IMG/VR virus record: IMGVR_UViG_3300020165_000109
Location: 1-29,213 of that record
Strand: one strand, 5' to 3'
Source of the DNA: a virus
Length of the DNA stretch: 29,213 bases
Shown piece after piece: positions 2,135 to 29,000 of this stretch (its first letter is position 1; every line of letters starts with the position of its first letter). The notes beneath the pieces were generated by a model, which did not search any database, had not been told where the DNA came from, and saw nothing but the letters and a program-made list of their open reading frames with translations. The position numbers and the translations under genes are program-made.

Positions 2135-3502
2135 TTATTTATTAAGTGTGAAAAATTGATTTGCTAATGCTTTTTTATCATAACTGTCTACTTCACCAAA
2201 TGGTTTAGTAATTTGGGTTGAATCTTGTTCTTTTTCGTAATCGTCAGGATTATAATCTTTTACAATAAAATGACCAGTTGCAGTATCAGCTTCTACTCCA
2301 AATGTTAATCCATCAATACCGTATCTATTCTTCATAATATGAAATCTTCCTGTTCCGTTTACTTTATCTGCTTTTTTTCTTGAAAGAGAAATACACACAT
2401 CAGTAATCATTATTTTATCATATGATCCTGCTGCTTTATCTCCTTCAACAATATCGTCTTTTGCTCCTGCACGATTTACCTGAGAAACTGACCAAATAGG
2501 GATGTCTAATTGGCGAGCTAATCCTTTAGTGCTTTGATAAATATCATCAATTTCTCCTTTTCTATCAGATGTTTTCTTTTTTGTTCCTAATAAATCAACA
2601 TAATCAATAATTACTAAATCAGGTTTAATTCCCATGTCAGTTATTTTTGTAATATGTGACTCAATTGTTGACATTGTTGCGCGACCTGTTGCAAATTCTT
2701 TAATAATTAACTCACCTTCTAAACTAGGCATTATTTCTTCTATTTTTTCTCTATTTTGTAAAATTCTATCAACTGGTATTTTACTAAAGAAAGCATCATA
2801 TCTTCTTCCTACATATTGTTCACCTAATTCTAATGTATAATGTACTACATTGTAACCCATTCTTACAGCAAATCCACCTAATGCAACTAATGACCAAGAT
2901 TTACCTCCTCCAGGGTTACCAAATATTAAACCAAAATCCCCATTTCCTAAACCACCTTGTAATAATTCATTAATTCTTGCCCAAGGTGTTGGAATTGTTG
3001 TTCTAGCATCTTCTCTAAATCTTGATTCTAAATCTTTTAAGTATTCATGTCCTACATTTTTATCATTACCAGCTTGTAAAGCACTTGATATTATAGTTTT
3101 AATTGAATCAAAATCACCTGCTTTTAATAAATCTACAGAAGACATTAATGCTTTTTTTATTTGTTGGTTTTTACAAAATCCAGTAAATTCTTCTTGTACA
3201 TATTCTAAATCTTCATCTGATGCTTGGTATGCTTCTCTTAATTGTTCTTTAACTGATAATTGTAGTACTTCATTATCAATTTTTTTAACTTCAACTTTTA
3301 AAATATCCATTGAAGGTGTAGTATGATACTTATCATAATATCTTAATATCTCCTTAACAATCCACTTATGAGCTTGATTGTCAAAATATTCATCACTTAA
3401 AATATCTTGAATATTAACTAAAAATTCCTTATGTGTTAATAAGGAAGATAGCACCTTTATTTGAAAATGGGGGCCATATTGGTTTAGGTTTTTTAACGTC
3501 AT
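2135..3502 (-). CDS. Replicative DNA helicase, DnaB/T4 gp41-like
   Basis: Hexameric 5'-3' helicase that unwinds the fork ahead of the phage polymerase. The N-terminal ~150 residues are helical, as in the DnaB N-domain. The RecA-like motor follows, with Walker A at residues 195-202 (GNPGGGKS), a catalytic-Glu segment HYTLELGE near 225, Walker B LVIIDYVDLL ending near 305 (D300) and the H3-like SVSQVNRAG segment. The length of 455 fits T4 gp41 (475) and bacterial DnaB. It starts 5 bases after the stop of the upstream nuclease and ends 8 bases before the reductase, so the three are cotranscribed. No primase was seen in the window. DnaB versus gp41 cannot be decided by eye, but the helicase assignment is firm. 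Confidence 0.9.
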   Translation of the reverse strand: MTLKNLNQYGPHFQIKVLSSLLTHKEFLVNIQDILSDEYFDNQAHKWIVKEILRYYDKYHTTPSMDILKVEVKKIDNEVLQLSVKEQLREAYQASDEDLEYVQEEFTGFCKNQQIKKALMSSVDLLKAGDFDSIKTIISSALQAGNDKNVGHEYLKDLESRFREDARTTIPTPWARINELLQGGLGNGDFGLIFGNPGGGKSWSLVALGGFAVRMGYNVVHYTLELGEQYVGRRYDAFFSKIPVDRILQNREKIEEIMPSLEGELIIKEFATGRATMSTIESHITKITDMGIKPDLVIIDYVDLLGTKKKTSDRKGEIDDIYQSTKGLARQLDIPIWSVSQVNRAGAKDDIVEGDKAAGSYDKIMITDVCISLSRKKADKVNGTGRFHIMKNRYGIDGLTFGVEADTATGHFIVKDYNPDDYEKEQDSTQITKPFGEVDSYDKKALANQFFTLNK

Positions 3503-15492: not shown

Positions 15493-18117
15493 TTAACCTA
15501 TTTTAGAAGATGCAATTGCTAAGTTTCTTCCTACTTTAGCACCATCTAATAAAACATCTCCTCCTTTTTCTACAATTGCTATTAATTGGTCTAATTTATC
15601 AACAATCATTGAATCTTCATTATCTCCACCACCTCCGCCTCCAAATACTGAAGCTAATTTCATTAATGGAGATGAAACTAAGGCTAAACCTGCTAAAGCC
15701 CCTATAATAGGTAATGCACCTATTCCTGCTATAGCCATAGATGCTAATCCTACTGATATTCCTACTAATGCTGGTCCTAATAATAAAAGTGGTAGTATAT
15801 TTTCCATACTAACAGCTTCCATTAATTTAACAAATCCATCTGCTACTGCTGTTACTACAGTAGCTACTCCAGTAAATATAGAATTTATTACAGTTCCAAA
15901 AGCTTTTATCCCAGGAGCAGCAACTTTAAGGGCAAAACCTATACCTATTATACTTAAAGTTAATATTCCCATACCAGCTGCTATTCCTGCTAATTGAGGA
16001 CCCATTATAGCTTTACCAAGAGAAGATAATCCTTTTCCTATTCCTGTAAGAAAGTTTTGAATTGTTTTCCCAAGTCCAGGTTTTACACCTTTTGTACCTT
16101 TTGTTATTTTATCTAAACCTCCACCTGTTTTTTCTCCAAAACCTAATGATTCTTTTAATTTACCAGCACCTCCTCCAGTTGCCATATCTTTTAAACCTGA
16201 ACCTAAACCTTTTAAATTTTTAAAAGCTCCACCTATACTATCTTTCATAGTAGTAAAGTGTTTAGCAACTCCCCCCATTTTCATTAATCCTATTGTTGCT
16301 AATAAAGGAACTAAAATTTTAGTATTTGATAAAACTCCTGCAATAGGAGTTACAATGTCTGCTAATAAATCCACAAGAGGAGCTAATGCTTGAGATATTT
16401 TAGCCATTGCTGCTTCCATTTTTTTTCCTGCTTCTTCTTGTTTCATTTGTTCAAGTGTTTGTTTTTGAGCAGCACTTAAACCTTCTTCTGACATACCAAC
16501 TGATAAACCTTGTTGAATAAGCATTTTTGCCATTTCTTCTGTACTCATACCTAAAGCTTTAGCTTGTGCTTGTTGTTGAATACTATTCATTTTTGCAAAA
16601 CTTGCTGATGTAATTCCTTGATTTGATAATTCCTTAGCAACTGTTTCAAGATCATTATTTAATGCTGCTTGTCTTGCTTTTTCTAAATTTAATTGTTTAC
16701 CAGTTAACAATTCTGCTTCCATTTCTGAAGCAATAGAACTTTCAAAGTCAAGTAATGAGCTTGCTAATTTTTTTACACCTGCTAAAGTAGTACCCATAGC
16801 AGCTGCAGCAGCACCTGCTGCTCCTAATTTTTCAGGATAACCTGAATATAAAATACCAATATCTACAGATACATTAGCTACATCTTCTAATACTCCTTTA
16901 GCTAATATTCCTGCTTTATTTTGTTTATTAAAAGAATTTACACCTGCTACAAGAGCTTCATTATTTGCTTTAACTGATTTACCATTTAATTTTGACATTT
17001 TAGCTAATTGACTTGCTTCTTTAGCAGTCATTCCCATATAATGTTCAATCCTTGATGCTTCTAGTAAATCTTCTGGTGTAAAGATATTAGTAGCATTCAT
17101 ACTAAGCTCTTTAGTTAAAGCTGTAGCAGTTTTAAGATAATCAGTCATAGTAATAAAGCCACTATTCGCTGCATCTATTTGTAATGCAAAAGTATTACCA
17201 TCTTGACCTGTAGTTCTTTGAAAATCAACTGCTGCTTTATCTACTTCTTTAAAGCCTTTTAACATTGCACCTAATATAACTGTTGGGTCTGTAAGAGTAC
17301 TTGTAAGTCCCTTAAATGCACTTTGTATACCAACTCCTAAAACTCCCCATCTACCAAGTGCTTTTCCTCCTCTTTCAGCATCAGAAGCAGCTTCTCTCAT
17401 ATCTTCTGCAACTTTGTCTATACCAATTGCTTCAGCAAATCCTCCAAAATTCTTTTTTAGAGCTCCTACAACTTTACCTGCTATTCCAAGTCTTTGATTA
17501 ATTCTTTCTTGTATTGCTTCTTCTTCTTTAGATGATTGTAGATTTTTTTCAGCAGCATCACCCATCCCATAAATTAAAGCTAAACGTTGGGTTTCTTTAT
17601 CTAAACCTTGTGCAGATTTTGAAAGATCTTGTTCAACAAACCCATTAATTCTTTCAGCTATTGTTAATTTTTGATTTAATTTTGCTAATTCTTCACCTTC
17701 AGCATTTACAATTCGATTTCTAAGACTATCTATTGTAGCAAGATTAGATATTCTTTTTTGATTTTTTTCATTAAGAGCTTGAGCTTGTTGTTGTTGTTCT
17801 GAAGTTAATGTTTTTTCATTAATTAATCTTTCTCTAGTAACTGCATTAATTTGAGATTCTTCTTTTAAAATTTGTTTAGTAAGATTAGAAGATTCACCTA
17901 AAGCAACTTTATTTTCTTCAGAAGCACTAGTAATTTGTCTTGATATACTTAATAAAGCTTTATCAAAATCATTTGTTTTTTGACGAATGCCTAATTGATC
18001 TTTTAACTCCTGATTAAGGTTTCTAGCTTCCTCGGATAACTGGGCAGCTAAGATTACACCTTGTTCTAAAGCTTGATTATTAGCCTTTATATCTTTACCG
18101 TTTTCCTTTATACCCAT
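15493..18117 (-). CDS. Tape measure protein
   Basis: Sets tail length and is thought to exit with the DNA. The 874-residue protein has the typical plan. Residues ~1-230 form an Ala/Glu/Lys/Gln-rich coiled coil. The middle has further helices with Met/Ala-rich stretches (TAKEASQLAKMSKLNGKS). A strongly hydrophobic zone covers ~690-830, with several potential membrane-crossing segments (for example LTLSIIGIGFALKVAAP and LPLLLLGPALVGISVGL). It is followed by a Gly run and a C-terminal tail ending VLLDGAKVGRNLAIASSKIG. It follows the tube and chaperone genes, the usual order. At roughly 1.5 angstroms per residue it would predict a tail near 130 nm. A hairpin and a late-type motif precede the start. 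Confidence 0.85.
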   Translation of the reverse strand: MGIKENGKDIKANNQALEQGVILAAQLSEEARNLNQELKDQLGIRQKTNDFDKALLSISRQITSASEENKVALGESSNLTKQILKEESQINAVTRERLINEKTLTSEQQQQAQALNEKNQKRISNLATIDSLRNRIVNAEGEELAKLNQKLTIAERINGFVEQDLSKSAQGLDKETQRLALIYGMGDAAEKNLQSSKEEEAIQERINQRLGIAGKVVGALKKNFGGFAEAIGIDKVAEDMREAASDAERGGKALGRWGVLGVGIQSAFKGLTSTLTDPTVILGAMLKGFKEVDKAAVDFQRTTGQDGNTFALQIDAANSGFITMTDYLKTATALTKELSMNATNIFTPEDLLEASRIEHYMGMTAKEASQLAKMSKLNGKSVKANNEALVAGVNSFNKQNKAGILAKGVLEDVANVSVDIGILYSGYPEKLGAAGAAAAAMGTTLAGVKKLASSLLDFESSIASEMEAELLTGKQLNLEKARQAALNNDLETVAKELSNQGITSASFAKMNSIQQQAQAKALGMSTEEMAKMLIQQGLSVGMSEEGLSAAQKQTLEQMKQEEAGKKMEAAMAKISQALAPLVDLLADIVTPIAGVLSNTKILVPLLATIGLMKMGGVAKHFTTMKDSIGGAFKNLKGLGSGLKDMATGGGAGKLKESLGFGEKTGGGLDKITKGTKGVKPGLGKTIQNFLTGIGKGLSSLGKAIMGPQLAGIAAGMGILTLSIIGIGFALKVAAPGIKAFGTVINSIFTGVATVVTAVADGFVKLMEAVSMENILPLLLLGPALVGISVGLASMAIAGIGALPIIGALAGLALVSSPLMKLASVFGGGGGGDNEDSMIVDKLDQLIAIVEKGGDVLLDGAKVGRNLAIASSKIG

Positions 18118-18144: not shown

Positions 18145-18163
18145 GCATCTATTTTTTAGATGC
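18145..18163 (-). terminator. Probable weak intrinsic terminator spanning the extension ORF's stop
   Basis: On the sense strand GCATCTA and TAGATGC form a perfect 7-bp stem around a five-A loop, with CTTTTGATATTT after it. The stop codon of the extension ORF lies within it. The T-run is short, so termination may be partial and act as an attenuator between the chaperone and the tape measure. Confidence 0.5.
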
Positions 18164-18358
18164 CTTTGTTGTATAGTTAGGGGATGATGAAGGTTTTGAT
18201 TTTACTTTTTTAAGAAATTCTGGTGATGTTACTTTACCATCAGTAGTTACTGATTTACTATTACTATTTTTTCCTTGAGCTTTTTTAACTGCTTTATTTT
18301 CTTCTATATAAAAATCATTTATTTTTTGAAATGTAAAATTACGTAACCATATAGGCAT
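18149..18358 (-). CDS. C-terminal extension ORF downstream of the gp26-like gene (probably frameshift-expressed)
   Basis: From the ATG at 18358 this is a 69-residue protein beginning MPIWLRNFTFQKINDFY and ending in a basic, Ser/Lys-rich, disordered-looking tail (KKVKSKPSSSPNYTTKASKK). The ATG is probably not the true start. The same frame is open upstream to 18469 and encodes protein-like sequence (FSQIHDIVFHGKGGYDWHT), overlapping the end of the gp26-like gene without any ATG, GTG or TTG. The simplest reading is a product made by a frameshift from the gp26-like gene (see the slippery site entry), giving about 101 extra residues. Independent translation from 18358 or from a rare start codon remains possible. 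Position between tail tube and tape measure fits a tail-assembly chaperone extension. Confidence 0.65.
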   Translation of the reverse strand: MPIWLRNFTFQKINDFYIEENKAVKKAQGKNSNSKSVTTDGKVTSPEFLKKVKSKPSSSPNYTTKASKK

Positions 18359-18469
18359 ATTATAAATTGTATGCCAATCATAGCCCCCTTTACCATGAAA
18401 TACTATATCATGAATTTGAGAAAATAAACTTACCCTATAAATCTGCGTCAGGCCAAAAAAATGTAAGCC
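18359..18469 (-). other. Open +1-frame overlap and T7 slippery site at the end of the gp26-like gene
   Basis: The extension frame is open from 18469 to 18149 and overlaps the last codons of the gp26-like gene (stop 18437-18435). A run of seven T on the sense strand (18461-18455) lies inside the overlap. The gp26 frame reads TTT TTT TGG there, and the extension frame reads TTT TTT GGC one base later. A +1 (or -2) slip at this run would fuse 242 residues of the gp26-like protein to 101 new residues, 343 in all. The 32 codons between the slip site and the ATG at 18358 contain no usual start codon. Confidence 0.6.
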
Positions 18470-19181
18470 CTATAGGGATTGTGATGTTCTCCTCGCCACC
18501 TTGTAATTCTATAGGTATATTTAAGTTAACATCTGGTTGGAAATCCTTTATATAATTTCTAAGTGATCTTGAATCTTGAGCTAAAAAATAGGTATCTACA
18601 AACTCTCTAATATCTTTTGCTTCATCTTTTCCATCTATTGATAATATCATATATTTAAGGCGTGTTGATAAATCAGCTGATAGTTTTGGGTTAATCTTTT
18701 TTAAACCTTTTAATTCTCTTTCAATTTTTACTTCATCACCATGTGTTAATAATTTAAATGTAATTATAGATCCTGATTTAGGTAGAGTAAATGAAAATTC
18801 ATTTTTACCTTGTTCAAATTTAGATTTATCAATCTCTTTATTTTCTAATGTAGATAAATCTATTTTAATTTTTTCATCTTTATAAGAAAATTCATAATCA
18901 TTACCATAACCTAATATTCTAGCAGCTATTAATAATGCATTTTTATCACCTACTATAAGATCATTATAATTTACTTTAGATACTATTAATGCTTTTAATA
19001 ATTTATCTAATACAGTACCATTTTGAATATATGATTGATTTGTAAGGATATCTTCTTCCTTAGCTGTCATATATTTCATTTCAATTTTTCCAGATGATAG
19101 TGGACTTTCTTTATCATAAACTAAACCTTTTGATGGAAGTTCTACGATTTCTGTTGGGAATTTATACTTTTCTTCGCTCAT
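18435..19181 (-). CDS. Baseplate hub assembly chaperone, T4 gp26 / T4_baseplate family
   Basis: A 248-residue cytoplasmic assembly factor of the family containing T4 gp26. Recognisable features are the N-terminal PTEIVELPSKGLVYDKESPL (residues 9-28), then KIEMKYMTAKEEDILTN, and the C-terminal IPIGLTFFWPDADL. T4 gp26 (208 residues) helps assemble the hub and is not part of the finished tail. Here the gene lies between tail tube and tape measure, where other phages carry the G and GT tail chaperones. Its end overlaps an open +1 frame at a T7 run, suggesting a second, longer product. It starts 10 bases after a weak late-type motif and lies downstream of a terminator, so it is separately transcribed. 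Confidence 0.8.
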   Translation of the reverse strand: MSEEKYKFPTEIVELPSKGLVYDKESPLSSGKIEMKYMTAKEEDILTNQSYIQNGTVLDKLLKALIVSKVNYNDLIVGDKNALLIAARILGYGNDYEFSYKDEKIKIDLSTLENKEIDKSKFEQGKNEFSFTLPKSGSIITFKLLTHGDEVKIERELKGLKKINPKLSADLSTRLKYMILSIDGKDEAKDIREFVDTYFLAQDSRSLRNYIKDFQPDVNLNIPIELQGGEENITIPIGLTFFWPDADL

Positions 19182-19280: not shown

Positions 19281-19769
19281 TTAGAAATTTAATACGCAGT
19301 AATCCATTCCTAAATTTAATGTAATATCTTGAGCTTCTGCTTCAGTATCCCAATTAAATCCTTTAAATGTTGCATCTTTAATAAATGCTCCTTTTATAAT
19401 CCATTCAGAAACTACATCTCCTACAGGACCTAATACATTAATAGTTACATCTTTCTTATAAAAATCAGAATAACCATCTCTACCAGTAACTGATTCATGA
19501 TGTAATCTTACCCACTCCATAGTAGCTTGTGCTCCTGATGGTGTAATTGGGTCATATAATGTCATTGAAATATCAGCCCATTTAGCTTTTCCTTTTACTT
19601 TTCTATAAGTATTAATGTGATTTAATACTATTTCACCTTGCTCTACCTTAATTTCACCAACTTCTTTAATCATATATGATGGTATACCATCTACATACAT
19701 TATAAATCTATTGGCAACTTTTGGTTCAAAAGCTGTGAAGAACATTTCGTTTGGATTTACTACTGCCAT
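19281..19769 (-). CDS. Tail tube protein (T4 gp19-like)
   Basis: Major tail tube subunit, stacking in hexameric rings around the tape measure. The length of 162 is the same as T4 gp19 (163). Visible features are the N-terminal NRFIMYVDGIPSYMIKEVG (residues 21-39), the central ADISMTLYDPITPSGAQA, and the C-terminal strand of an alternating beta pattern ending DITLNLGMDYCVLNF. Position directly after the sheath gene matches T4 18-19. It has its own late-type motif 12 bases upstream of the ATG and a strong terminator downstream, so it forms a single-gene unit suited to high expression. Confidence 0.88.
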   Translation of the reverse strand: MAVVNPNEMFFTAFEPKVANRFIMYVDGIPSYMIKEVGEIKVEQGEIVLNHINTYRKVKGKAKWADISMTLYDPITPSGAQATMEWVRLHHESVTGRDGYSDFYKKDVTINVLGPVGDVVSEWIIKGAFIKDATFKGFNWDTEAEAQDITLNLGMDYCVLNF

Positions 19770-19814: not shown

Positions 19815-22800
19815 TTATGATGGGAATGTAGCTCCAGTTGGTAAAATGTTGAAATCTAAATAAATAAATTCAGCTGTTTTAGTTGGTTGGATATAAATTG
19901 CACCTACCATTTGATTTCTATCAACTACATCTGGTCCATTATTTGAAGCATCCATAACTACCTTAAATGCAAATAAACCTTGTCTTTGTTGTACTGATTC
20001 TAAATATGGGTTTACTTGAGATAAAAAGTTATTTCTTGTTGCTGCTGTATTTTGTTCAAATACTAAATTATCAGCAATCTGTACAATGTAAGATTTTAAT
20101 GCTATCAATAATCTTCTTACATTTATTCTATCTAATGCAGATGCTGCTGTTTGAAGTGTTTTTTGTCCAAATACTACAACTCCTTTTCCAGGGAATGTAG
20201 CTATTGGGTTAACTTTACCTACATACAGATTATCTCTATTAGTTTGAGTTAATTTTCTTTGTGCTTGTACTACCGTACTTAAGCCACCTCTATTAATTCC
20301 AGCGGGAGCGAACCAAGCTTCACTTGTTCGGTCATTAAACGCGTACACACCCGGAATCATCGATGAAGGCACCGTCCATACTAACTGTCCTGAATTAGGA
20401 TCACTTACTTGAACCCATGGCCAATAAGCAGCAGCATATGAGTTATCTATTTTTGCAGCTTGAGCATTTACTGATGTAACTGTTCCATTTGGATAATTAA
20501 CTAAATCTACTAATGCTATAGCATCTCCTCTATCTGCTGTATTCTGTATTAATAAATTAAGTGGAGTTACATTTGATGGTGCTGCATAAATTAAACCAGG
20601 AGCTGTTATAATATTATATGAATAATCATCTTTATTTGCTAATAAATTAAAAGCATCAATATAATTACTTCCTGCTCCACTAGCCATTTCTGTTGAAGTT
20701 AAACCTTGTGTATTATCATCTGTTATTGCATCATAGTATTTAGCTTGAGTATAAGAAGGATATCCTGTTTCTGAAAATAAAGCTCCATTAGCTCCTGCAA
20801 ATGATCCACTTCCTACATCTGGAAGAGAAGATGAATATGCGTCATTTGGTGAACCATTATTATCAAAATAATTTGGTGTTTTATATGCTACATTACTTAC
20901 TCTTACATATCTTGAAGCATTTCCATATGATCCTGTTGTTTCTACATATGGATCTGAAGTTCCAGCTCCTCTAAGTACTTTTTTCATATCTCCAACTACT
21001 TTAGATATGTAATTAGATGCTTTTGGATCTAATGAAACATTAGGGAATATTTCAAGTACTCTTTTAGCTGTTGAAGTATCATTACCTTGTCTAATTATTA
21101 AACTAAATGTTCCAGAAGCTATATCAGTTGCTTGTATTTCCCATCTTACATTATTTGCTGTACCATTTGTTAATATTCCATTATTTCCTGTTGCAGTTCC
21201 ACTATTCATTATTATTCCTTCTGAAAGTGTTTCTAATGTAAATGCTTCTGCATCTAATAGATCTGCATTTTGTAAATCTATTAATAATGCTGTTGTTGGT
21301 GTTCCTATGTTAGCTGCTGCTGCAACTCCTAAATCATCACCTACTATAAATGAATCACTAGCACCTTGAGCTGCTAATGTAATTGAAGTTGGTTCAATTA
21401 TTAAATTGTTATCACCATTATTTTGAGCAGTTGCTGCATTTACTTGAAGTGCTGCGGCTGTAGCAGCTCCAGAATTTTCTAAATCACCTGATGCTAAAGT
21501 AAATACTACATCAGCTGAAGGGAAATCTGTACCTGTTATATCTGTACCTGCAATTGAAATAGTATTTCCTGCTTGGAATCCTTCTACTGCTGTTGCATTT
21601 GTTGGTGTTATACTAGTAACAGTTGATCCTACATTAGCATTTGCAAATGTAGCAGTTGCAGTACCTGATGCTAAACTTAATCCTGAAATTGAATTAATTG
21701 AAGCAGCATTAAATGTTATTACAGTTGGTACTGTTGAACTATAACCTGTACCACCTGATACTAAATTAACGGCATTTAAAGCACCTCCACTAAATCCTAA
21801 AGTAATTATACCTCCTGTTCCACCACCTGCTATTGAAGCACCTGCTGTTACTAAATCAGCTACATTTACTTGTGCAGTTGTTCCAGTAAATAAACCACCT
21901 CCTTGTTCAACTGCTGTAATACCTCCACCACCTGGGGTTATTGTACTTGCTGCAAATATTCCTGATTTAGCCCATGTTAAAGTAAATGTTGCACCTGATC
22001 CTTTAGATAAAGCTGTTCCATTAGCAACTTGATACTTTGCAGTTGTACCTGTAGTACCTTCAGTAATAGTTATACTACCTGCTGCTGTAGTTCCTGTTTG
22101 ATTTGTTGATGGAGTTTTTGCTGCTACTTTAATCATTCCTGATCCTAAAGCTCCTGCTGGAATTGTTAATACATCTGTAGCTACATATCCTGTTCCTGGT
22201 TTAGTAATTGCTAAAGTAGCTATTCGTCCTCTTTGTGTTGAACCTAATTCTGTACCAATTGTTACTGTTGCTTCAGCTCCAGTTCCTGTTCCTCCACCAA
22301 GAGCAACTCCTGTAAATGATCCACCTACAAGACAAGTTAATGGAACTAAAGTACCATTATCAAATCTAAAAGCTATTGAATCTGCAGTTGCTACTGCACT
22401 ATTTGTTCCTGTGTATAATTTTCCTATACTTGTTCCTCTTACCATATTAATAGAAGTACCTGTATCTACACCTCCTGGATCATTCTTTGTAACAAGTATG
22501 TTATTAAATGTCCCAGCTGTACCACCTTGAGCAGTTGAACCTGCTGATGCTGTAAAATTAAAAGGAGCTGGAGTTAATTTTGTACTTTCTTCATTATTTC
22601 TAATTGGGTCAGTTGTTGTAGTTGCAGAAGTCCATGACCCTGAAGCTACTCTATTTACTATTAAAGATGTACCACCATTATTAAAATAGTTATAAGCTGA
22701 GATTGATGTAAAATAAGTGTATTCGTCTGAACCACTTGCAAATGTACTACCGTAATTTGCTAAATATTCTGAGTAGCTTGTTACTAATTTAGGAACTCCT

Positions 22801-22919
22801 ACTCTACCTAAAACAGTTGGACCAACGATACAAGCTCCTGCTTGTACGGGTAGTGAAGTTACTTGAGATTGATCATTTTCTCTTGCTAGTACTCCTGGGG
22901 AAATTAATGTTTCTGCCAT
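19815..22919 (-). CDS. Tail sheath protein with a ~470-residue insertion
   Basis: Contractile sheath subunit (T4 gp18 role). The N-terminus has the family start (SPGVLARENDQSQV, then GACIVGPTVLGRVG). The C-terminal ~450 residues hold the conserved core: FSLIIRQGND near 605, AAYWPWVQVSDP, FNDRTSEAWFAPAGINRGG, then INVRRLLIALKS and the C-terminal DFNILPTG. At 1034 residues it is far longer than T4 gp18 (659). The excess lies between about 120 and 590. This part is almost free of aromatic and charged residues, is rich in Thr, Gly, Ala, Ser and Val, and has repeat-like motifs (PGTGYVATDVLTIP and GGTGYSSTVPTVITF). It probably forms a beta-rich surface domain on the tail exterior. It has its own late-type motif and lies directly before tube. 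Confidence 0.9.
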   Translation of the reverse strand: MAETLISPGVLARENDQSQVTSLPVQAGACIVGPTVLGRVGVPKLVTSYSEYLANYGSTFASGSDEYTYFTSISAYNYFNNGGTSLIVNRVASGSWTSATTTTDPIRNNEESTKLTPAPFNFTASAGSTAQGGTAGTFNNILVTKNDPGGVDTGTSINMVRGTSIGKLYTGTNSAVATADSIAFRFDNGTLVPLTCLVGGSFTGVALGGGTGTGAEATVTIGTELGSTQRGRIATLAITKPGTGYVATDVLTIPAGALGSGMIKVAAKTPSTNQTGTTAAGSITITEGTTGTTAKYQVANGTALSKGSGATFTLTWAKSGIFAASTITPGGGGITAVEQGGGLFTGTTAQVNVADLVTAGASIAGGGTGGIITLGFSGGALNAVNLVSGGTGYSSTVPTVITFNAASINSISGLSLASGTATATFANANVGSTVTSITPTNATAVEGFQAGNTISIAGTDITGTDFPSADVVFTLASGDLENSGAATAAALQVNAATAQNNGDNNLIIEPTSITLAAQGASDSFIVGDDLGVAAAANIGTPTTALLIDLQNADLLDAEAFTLETLSEGIIMNSGTATGNNGILTNGTANNVRWEIQATDIASGTFSLIIRQGNDTSTAKRVLEIFPNVSLDPKASNYISKVVGDMKKVLRGAGTSDPYVETTGSYGNASRYVRVSNVAYKTPNYFDNNGSPNDAYSSSLPDVGSGSFAGANGALFSETGYPSYTQAKYYDAITDDNTQGLTSTEMASGAGSNYIDAFNLLANKDDYSYNIITAPGLIYAAPSNVTPLNLLIQNTADRGDAIALVDLVNYPNGTVTSVNAQAAKIDNSYAAAYWPWVQVSDPNSGQLVWTVPSSMIPGVYAFNDRTSEAWFAPAGINRGGLSTVVQAQRKLTQTNRDNLYVGKVNPIATFPGKGVVVFGQKTLQTAASALDRINVRRLLIALKSYIVQIADNLVFEQNTAATRNNFLSQVNPYLESVQQRQGLFAFKVVMDASNNGPDVVDRNQMVGAIYIQPTKTAEFIYLDFNILPTGATFPS

Positions 22920-26004: not shown

Positions 26005-29000
26005 TTATTTTTTATTTTTTAACTTATCAATTTCAGTTTTTAATTCATTAACAGCTTGAATTAGTACGGCTACTAATCTATCATATTTAACTGCTTTATA
26101 ACCATTTTCTCTTGTTTGAACTATTTCTGGAAATATTTTTTCTATTTCTTGTGCTATCATACCTATATCATGTCCTTCATTTTCATGTATTCCTGGTTTA
26201 GGTATCCAATCAAATGTAACACCACTAAGTTTTGATAGTTTTTCTAATGCATTTGGTATAGGTAATATATTAGTTTTTAATCTTCTATCTGATGAATAAA
26301 ATGCAACAACATCATTTGTAGCTCTAATTAAACCTGGTGTTATAGGAGATGATGTTCCTACTCCTAAAGCACCATTAACATATAATGTAGTACTATCAAA
26401 TGTTAAATTAGCTTCTGCTGTTAAATTTGGTGATGTACTATTTAATGTCATAACACCATTATTTGTTGATCCTGTAATTGTAGCTGTACCACTTGTACCT
26501 GATGATCCTGATGAACCTGAAGTACCTGATGATCCTGATGAACCTGAAGTACCTGAAGAACCTGAGCTACCTGATGTACCTGAAGATCCTGATGAACCTG
26601 AACCACCCCCACCACCTTGTAATGCAAGAGTTGCATTACTAGAACCACCATTTAAAAAGAAATCACTTGTATTAAAAGTAATTTGAGATAGGCCTGAAAT
26701 AGTATTTGATCCTCCCCCTCCTTGAAAAATTCCAATTGCTGTTACTGATGTACCTGATGAACCACTTGAACCTGAAGTACCTGATGAACCTGATGAACCT
26801 GAAGTACCTGAACTACCTGAACTACCTGAAGAACCTGAAGAACCTGATGTACCTGATGATCCTGAAGAACCTGAAGTACCTGAAGAACCACTAGATCCTG
26901 ATGTACCACTTGAACCTGATGAACCACCTTCTGTAAATATTATACTACATAAATCATCATCTGCAATTGTAGTTGCAGATTTTGCTAATTGTGTAACATT
27001 AAAAGATCTATAGGATCCTGTTGGATCTCTTGGATCTATTACTGATGTTGCTCTTAATACTGTAAACTTAGTTGGATCTTCATTTGAAACAATTCTTATA
27101 AGGAATGGTAATTGAAGACCTTCAAGGAAAGTTGTAGCTGTAAAAGTTCCTGAAGGGATAAGTTTTGATTGATTATCAAAACCTACTTGAGTTGTTGTAG
27201 TACCCCATGTTGCATCAAATTGGAAATAAGTAAGAGCTGGTTGAGTTCCACCACTACCAATAAATGTTGTAGCATCATAATAATATTGAAGCATCCAAGC
27301 TTGACCTGATGTACCTGATGAACCTGAGCTACCTGAGCTACCTGAAGTACCTGATGAACCTGAGCTACCTGATGTACCTGATGATCCTGAAGATCCTGAA
27401 GTACCTGATGATCCTGAAGAACCTGAAGAACCACTTGATCCTGATGTACCTGAAGAACCTGATGATCCTGATGTACCACTTGATCCTGATGAACCACTTG
27501 TTCCTGATGAACCTGAAGAACCTGATGTACCTGATGAACCTGATGAACCACTTGATCCTGATGAACCTGAATCACCATATGCTGCAAATTCTACAGAACA
27601 ATTATCAAAAGCAGATGTTGCAACAAGTATATTACCTGAAAGATTTGTTACTGTAACTGTATATACATTTGAAGATGGTCCTGATACAGCAGTAACTTTC
27701 ATTACTGAAAATGAATTTGAATTACCTGTAGCATCTCGTAATGTAACTACTCCCATTCCTGTTGTTGAATTACCTGTATCATCCCAACTTTCAATCCAGC
27801 CATCTACATCTTCTCCATTATTATTTTCTTTACTAATTGTTAAAGTAGTTGGACCTTCACCAGGAATACTAAATGATGCTCCTACTCCACCTTGTCCTGG
27901 TGATAATGTATTACCTTTATAATCAAATATGATTCCACCTTTTAAACCTGATGAACCTGAAGAACCTGATGATCCTGAAGTACCTGATGAACCACTTGAT
28001 CCTGATGTACCTGATGATCCTGAAGAACCTGATGTACCTGATGATCCTGATGAACCTGAAGAACCACTTGATCCTGATGTACCTGAAGAACCTGAAGATC
28101 CTGAAGTACCTGATGATCCTGAAGAACCTGAAGAACCACTTGATCCTGATGTACCTGATGATCCTGATGATCCTGATGTACCACTTGATCCTGATGAACC
28201 ACTTGAACCTGAAGATCCTGAAGTACCTGATGATCCTGAAGATCCTGAAGTACCTGATGATCCTGAAGAACCTGAAGAACCACTTGATCCTGATGTACCT
28301 GAAGAACCTGATGATCCTGATGTACCACTTGATCCTGATGAACCTGATGTACCTGATGAACCACTTGATCCTGAAGTACCACTTGAACCTGAAGAACCTG
28401 GACCACCTGTAGCTGAAAATTGAACTGTTACTTTAGTCCCTGTTGTTAATCCTGTTAATTGTGTAGATTTTTCATCAACATTAAACGTACTTACACCTGA
28501 TGTATTATTAACAAATGATGTTATTGTTCCTACGAAAATTTGATTACTTGTGTTATCAGCAGTTTGTATTGTTACTGTACCTAAATTAGTAGCACTTCCA
28601 TTATCATCCCATGATCCTATCCATCCAGCTACGTCCGTACCTTCATGATTATCTTCATCTATAAATAACTGTGATTGTGCTCCATTTAATCCTACTTCTC
28701 CAGCACCAATACTACCAACTACATTTGCAGTGTTAAATTCATATAACATTCCTCCTCTAAATCCTGATGAACCTGATGATCCACTTGATCCTGATGTACC
28801 ACTTGAACCTGATGAACCTGATGTACCTGATGATCCTGAGCTACCTGATGTACCTGAAGAACCACTTGAACCTGATGTACCTGATGATCCTGATGAACCT
28901 GAAGAACCACTTGATCCTGATGTACCTGATGAACCACTTGATCCTGATGTACCTGAAGATCCTGATGAACCTGAAGCACCTGATGATCCTGAAGATCCTG

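Follow-up and report, generated by a model that had tools for sequence, protein, structure and literature searches.

A predicted programmed +1 frameshift in the gp26-type tail assembly chaperone gene of a group of myophages

Phage lambda (gpG/gpGT) and phage P2 (E/E+E′) both encode a short tail assembly chaperone and a frameshift-extended form of it between their tail tube and tape measure genes, with a −1 shift at X_XXY_YYZ heptamers, and the review by Atkins describes such G-T frameshifting as widely conserved except in T4 (PMC5009743). The same review covers +1 shifts in phage structural or tail genes: the tail chaperone of the haloarchaeal myovirus HSTV-2 is a likely +1 case, and PSA cps/tsh, a capsid/tube case, shifts at CCC; neither is described there as gp26-type (PMC5009743). 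In T4-like phages, chaperone genes were identified by Vladimirov, Gautam, and Davidson in 2022 (Virology 566:9–15), a study represented here by papers that cite it (PMC12846349, PMC10885494). According to these papers, T4-like phages carry a short chaperone copy and a fused longer copy (PMC10885494), and their chaperone genes contain poly-T −1 signals (PMC12846349). As relayed there, the role of T4-type gp26 as a G-type chaperone is already established.

Here, we describe a related locus whose predicted shift is +1 instead of −1 and whose chaperone gene is of the gp26 type, unlike lambda gpG. The direction of the shift is shared with HSTV-2, likened by description only, and with PSA. A preliminary description of this DNA regarded frameshifting of a gp26-type protein as new and proposed that, if real, it could give gp26-type hub chaperones and lambda G/GT equivalent roles in tape measure loading. 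The equivalence had already been published (PMC12846349, PMC10885494), and the apparent novelty lies in the +1 direction, across a large and diverse group of gp26-type phages. Our literature search on gp26/gp51 and frameshifting found no +1 report, with Vladimirov et al. 2022 known through the citing papers.

The locus lies on the minus strand of a 29,213-nucleotide stretch of marine phage DNA (IMG/VR record IMGVR_UViG_3300020165_000109), hereafter the window. Along that strand, an ORF at the sheath position is followed by a gp19-type tail tube gene, a gp26-like ORF, and an ORF of 874 codons where the tape measure gene would lie. The tail tube gene (19281..19769), immediately upstream of the gp26-like ORF, matches PHROG_4542 tail tube with E 2.3e-20. 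The 874-codon ORF (15493..18117) gave no family match in a profile search and is assigned by position and size; its ATG follows the extension stop by 32 nt, and the ORF in the same position in Flavobacterium phage immuto is annotated as a tail tape measure protein. The chaperone pair is thereby located between tail tube (by PHROG_4542) and tape measure (by position and the immuto annotation), as proposed earlier, in the same gene order as lambda V-G-T-H. We count this order in favor of the explanation developed below.

The gp26-like ORF (18435..19181, minus strand) encodes 248 residues, the putative short tail assembly chaperone (G / TAC-N), and ends in ...GLTFFWPDADL followed by TAG. This stop of the unshifted product (18435..18437) lies 4 codons after a CCT. 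A second frame, +1 relative to the gp26-like ORF, is open from stop to stop for 106 codons (18469 to 18149), starting GLHFFGLTQIYRVSLFSQIHDIVFHGKGGYDWHTIYNMPIWLR. Around the junction, the frame-0 codons are ACA TTT TTT TGG CCT GAC GCA GAT TTA TAG; within the predicted frameshift site (18446..18461), TTT TTT TGG CCT GAC in frame 0 becomes TTT TTT GGC CTG AC. in the +1 frame. The extension, a T-like domain occupying 18149..18460 including its stop, would add ~101 residues after the shift, for a fusion of 343 residues. The first start codon of any kind (ATG, GTG, or TTG) in the extension frame is the ATG of ...YNMPIW, which follows the TTT TTT slip codons by 32 codons. The preliminary description had reported several of these features, namely the normal end of the gp26-like ORF, its overlap with a second frame (18149–18469), the start-less stretch, a T7 run read as either TTT TTT TGG or TTT TTT GGC, and a fusion of ~343 residues, and all of them were reproduced.

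The gp26-like product belongs to the T4 gp26 family (PF12322 / PHROG_150) by full-domain profile matches. It matched PHROG_150 (baseplate hub) across residues 4–243 with E 2.5e-11 and PF12322 (T4_baseplate) with E 3.7e-5 and 23.9 bits, just below the 24.5 cut-off; the PF12322 scores of its relatives L003 and LIS04 were 57.5 and 85.6 bits, respectively. The short product and the extension were folded as separate models. The AlphaFold model of the gp26-like product has a pLDDT of 92, and its matches in BFVD, which are predicted structures, are named T4-like baseplate hub assembly protein. The top PDB match was YqbN (3klu; Z 5.6, rmsd 5.3, 89 aligned); a further match was to the HK97 tail assembly chaperone (2ob9; Z 4.7, rmsd 5.2, 82 aligned; Foldseek E 1.1). 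Both Z values exceed those of unrelated entries (3.1), are low in absolute terms, and hint at a TAC-like fold. PDB sequence searches with either the gp26-like or the extension alignment returned no relative.

The extension model is helical and gave nothing below E 0.6 against BFVD. Its relationships emerged from profile comparison: the window-type extension profile matched that of cyanophage gp51-type extensions (89%, E 2e-6; controls with shuffled columns ≤2.5%), and the cyanophage profile in turn matched the C-terminus of T4 gp51 (96%, E 1e-9; such controls ≤9%). Because the direct comparison of the window-type profile with the T4 gp51 C-terminus was not significant (0.8%), the kinship of the extension to T4 gp51 runs through the cyanophage extensions. 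PHROG_634 (gp51-type) was matched by the extension of the relative L130 (E 0.002) and not by that of the window itself. T4 gp51 consists of a PF12322 domain followed by the C-terminal domain that matches the cyanophage extension, an architecture equivalent to that of the in-frame fused copy attributed to T4-like chaperones in the papers citing Vladimirov et al. T4 gp26 and gp51 are thus of the same family as the window gene, and the C-terminal domain of gp51 is homologous, through the cyanophage form, to the window extension; T4 uses two separate genes, whereas the window locus would use one gene and a +1 frameshift.

Both parts are found by tblastn in the same +1 relation in isolates, namely three Flavobacterium phage immuto strains and Microcystis phage Mel-JY01, as well as in many IMG/VR contigs. 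Relative to the window, immuto shows 60% identity in gp26 and 38–40% in the extension. The presence of the arrangement in isolates, and not in assemblies only, further favors the proposed frameshift. Of 186 distinct junctions, 179 keep the +1 frame open for 150 nt or more beyond the gp26 stop. The scored set comprised the 177 distinct +1 junctions with a recognizable F-[FL]-aromatic-P motif; in each of these, the +1 frame stays open through the gp26 stop and specifies a homologous extension, at gp26 identities as low as ~36%. The T7 run at the junction would also be a natural place for a sequencing or assembly indel that split a single gene, a reading we consider vanishingly improbable given the same phase in 177 distinct junctions and several isolates, with none found in which the frames are fused; the comparative data refute such an artifact. 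The exceptions that we inspected were L264 and L259, in which the extension has its own ATG; L269, in which it lies in the −1 frame; and junctions affected by a contig end or by an indel further upstream (L266 and L013, for example). The −1 frame is open for at least 100 nt past the stop in only 21 of the 177 junctions, and the extension lies in +1, not in the frame that a lambda-type −1 shift at X_XXY_YYZ would enter.

Coding constraint in the extension frame extends upstream of the core methionine (NMPIWLR). We compared single-base codon differences pairwise between the gp26 stop and this methionine. In the +1 frame, 74% were synonymous versus 19.5% expected (pairwise counts 53987 vs 19291, from pairs that are not phylogenetically independent); in the two other frames, the synonymous share was 11% and 9%. 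Because the effect is both large and frame-specific, it is very hard to doubt, from these alignments, that the start-less stretch is translated as +1 coding sequence. The constraint that the preliminary description had proposed to look for in this overlap is strong. Together with the 177 junctions, it lends strong comparative support to the claim that a programmed shift fuses gp26 with its extension. We infer that programmed +1 ribosomal frameshifting very probably yields two tail assembly chaperones from this gene, one short and G-like, the other long and GT-like.

The same data bear on whether the extension is instead a separate protein, translated from a non-canonical or downstream start by translational coupling and never fused to gp26. 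Public annotations do give truncated separate ORFs, and in L259 and L264 the gp26 stop is directly followed by an extension ORF that starts with an ATG of its own. All 159 of the other scored junctions, however, lack a start codon from the shift site to the gp26 stop, and 116 of these 159 have none before the core methionine. The first ATG of the extension usually falls inside its most conserved motif, with coding constraint reaching upstream of it, and only the two ATG-bearing relatives depart from the otherwise frozen slip codons. Translation of the extension as a protein of its own is accordingly an improbable account of the family. A conventional ATG, which the preliminary description had proposed to look for in homologs, is present directly behind the gp26 stop only in L259 and L264, exactly those in which the motif is lost (TTC TTG TAT CCT GAC in L259, TTC CTT TGG CCA GAT in L264). 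The amino acids at both junctions are nearly retained despite the decayed motif, and in sequence comparison the two relatives serve as natural controls for what the nucleotides at the site contribute. In both (L264, ~2700–3000; L259, ~2700–3030), the extension ORF has ~20 extra N-terminal residues, and the change is between frameshift and split genes.

The codons at the shift site are nearly frozen. At the 177 junctions, codon 1 is TTT in 168 and TTC in 9, and codon 2 is TTT in 158, CTT in 17, and CTA in 2. Phe at codon 2 is thus never TTC, compared with a gene-wide TTT:TTC ratio of 79:21, and 17 of the 19 Leu codons are CTT versus 20% expected. Codon 3 is TGG in 169 junctions and another aromatic codon in the rest. 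Codon 4 is CCT in 176, with a single CCA (L032), although CCT makes up 34% of Pro codons gene-wide, and an Asp following CCT is encoded by GAC in 132 cases and GAT in 1, compared with a gene-wide GAC:GAT ratio of 22:78. The conserved CCT and GAC could arise in part from dual coding (Pro/Leu and Asp/Thr) instead of acting as a shift signal. Conservation of a slippery run, for which the preliminary description had proposed a test, holds in the sense that YUU_U is present at codon 2 in 175 of 177 junctions and UUU_Y in 177 of 177, the latter being weakly informative, as most FF pairs would contain UUU_Y. The uninterrupted T7 run itself is not invariant; it is replaced by TTT CTT T in 17 junctions and by TTC TTT T in 9.

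These interruptions discriminate among mechanisms. The preliminary description allowed either a +1 or a −2 shift, and the +1 alternative is favored. A −2 frameshift was rejected as the main model, since interrupted runs such as TTTCTTTGG bar −2 re-pairing, and the same applies to TTCTTTTGG. RNA polymerase slippage on the T run could generate a subset of mRNAs one base shorter, and the window and most relatives do have at least 7 consecutive T. T runs of 3–4 do not support transcriptional slippage, and 28 junctions with runs of only that length (TTTCTTT, TTCTTTT, and TTTCTAT) retain the +1 arrangement, which makes a transcriptional origin highly improbable.

The main alternative for the slip codon, a variant of ribosomal +1 shifting and not its opposite, would place the shift at the proline codon (CCU to CUN, by tRNA-Pro), giving ...FFWP-TQIYR instead of ...FF-GLTQIYR. 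We consider this unlikely, though well ahead of the other alternatives. CCT is kept in 176 of 177 junctions whatever base comes next, and +1 shifting at Pro CCC is documented in Listeria phage PSA (PMC5009743). The codon usage at codon 2 (TTC in none of 158 Phe codons where 21% is expected, CTT in 17 of 19 Leu codons where 20% is expected) points instead to YUU_U, and L032 has CCA. The distinction between slips at Phe and at Pro is blurred because a need for Pro in frame 0 and Leu in +1 would by itself force CCT. The Thornevirus-like +1 relatives LIS04 and SP-15, which keep TTT TTT without a frame-0 proline, favor the Phe slip as judged from their sequences.

In the mechanism that we propose, most ribosomes would read the gp26-like ORF to TAG and produce the short chaperone. 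A minority would slip one base forward at YTT_T(GG CCT) and produce the 343-residue long chaperone with its helical C-terminal domain. The most likely step would be movement of the P-site peptidyl-tRNA from UUU (or CUU) to the overlapping UUU with Trp UGG in the A site, after which the ribosome would read GGC CTG AC. into the extension. The frame-0 stop is 1–4 codons after CCT in the relatives; therefore, the shift would take place at sense codons and not at the stop. If the two products divide their tasks as lambda gpG and gpGT do, coating of the tape measure protein would fall to the short form and recruitment of the tail tube protein to the long one.

The E. coli RF2 gene offers a mechanistic parallel, with a CUU_U +1 slip, a stop codon in the A site, and a Shine–Dalgarno-like stimulator. 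Both RF2 and, as proposed, the window locus would involve P-site re-pairing of YUU_U one base forward; in the window locus, by contrast, the A site would hold UGG, and no consistent stimulator was found. Downstream of the site, there was no excess RNA folding (z −0.80 vs −0.96 inside the gene, for pseudoknot-free folding against mononucleotide shuffles). Upstream, a Shine–Dalgarno-like stimulator is not conserved: an SD-like tetramer occurs in 61 of 179 junctions, and GGG is found within 15 nt of the site in only 79 of 179. We tentatively suggest, at somewhat less than an even chance, that +1 recoding at a new class of site, YUU_UGG_CCU, has replaced −1 recoding in a large, mostly uncultured branch of gp26-type myophages while the protein pair stayed the same. 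This candidate class, about which we are similarly tentative, would be a sense-codon one that needs no stop codon, RNA structure, or Shine–Dalgarno-like stimulator. Within the family, a +1 site with no obvious stimulator occurs in hundreds of natural versions.

Other members of the wider family encode the same pair differently. Cyanophage-type phages have the same gene pair, gp26 and a short "gp51" ORF, and a homologous extension, but with a −1 site at T_TTT_TTN. In the gp26 genes of cyanophage-type and Aeromonas-65-type phages (L270–L361), in-phase T_TTT_TTN is present in 81 of 81 distinct junctions; the −1 extension is open in 80, the exception (L296) ending at a contig edge, and no long +1 frame was found in any of the 81. 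These −1 sites may already be included in Vladimirov et al. 2022, which we know from its citing papers. The annotated cyanophage "gp51" of 45–59 aa corresponds to the −1 extension cut to its first ATG. Cyanophage short "gp51" has been noted to lack ~200 residues (PMC3037559), and the comparison of reading frames suggests that this cut would explain the missing residues. Extensions in −1 also occur in Stenotrophomonas phage RAS14, Xanthomonas phage XacN1, LR756511, and L269, and extensions in +1 occur in Bacillus phage SP-15, Listeria phage LIS04, and Streptococcus phage GXN1.

The pair thus appears to exist in four encodings: +1 in the clade of the window, −1 in the cyanophage type, own starts in L259 and L264, and gp26 plus fused gp51 in T4. 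With the pair constant and its decoding varied, it becomes testable whether selection keeps the short:long ratio and not the way of making it. Annotations can also be corrected: immuto entries currently carry the extension as a truncated hypothetical protein, and cyanophage entries carry it as a short gp51.

Several further features were observed in the course of this work. In jumbo and other phages (L006, 3283; L373, 2280; L007; L269), gp26-type genes have a −1 extension whose T run is TTTTTTT or TTTTTTC. The phages of Gram-positive hosts, SP-15 (L372, 1941), LIS04 (L004, 3208), and GXN1 (L005, 3229), have a different +1 site, which is TTTTTT...CCCGAT in SP-15 and LIS04. In the window, the sheath-position ORF (19815–22919, minus strand; 1034 codons) is far longer than T4 gp18 and contains Gly/Thr-rich stretches. 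A 914-codon ORF (26005–28749, minus strand) contains long GSSGTSGSSG repeats, and several long ORFs on the opposite strand are shadows of this repeat. The C-terminal end of its product resembles an S74-type intramolecular chaperone (DRRLKTNI...).
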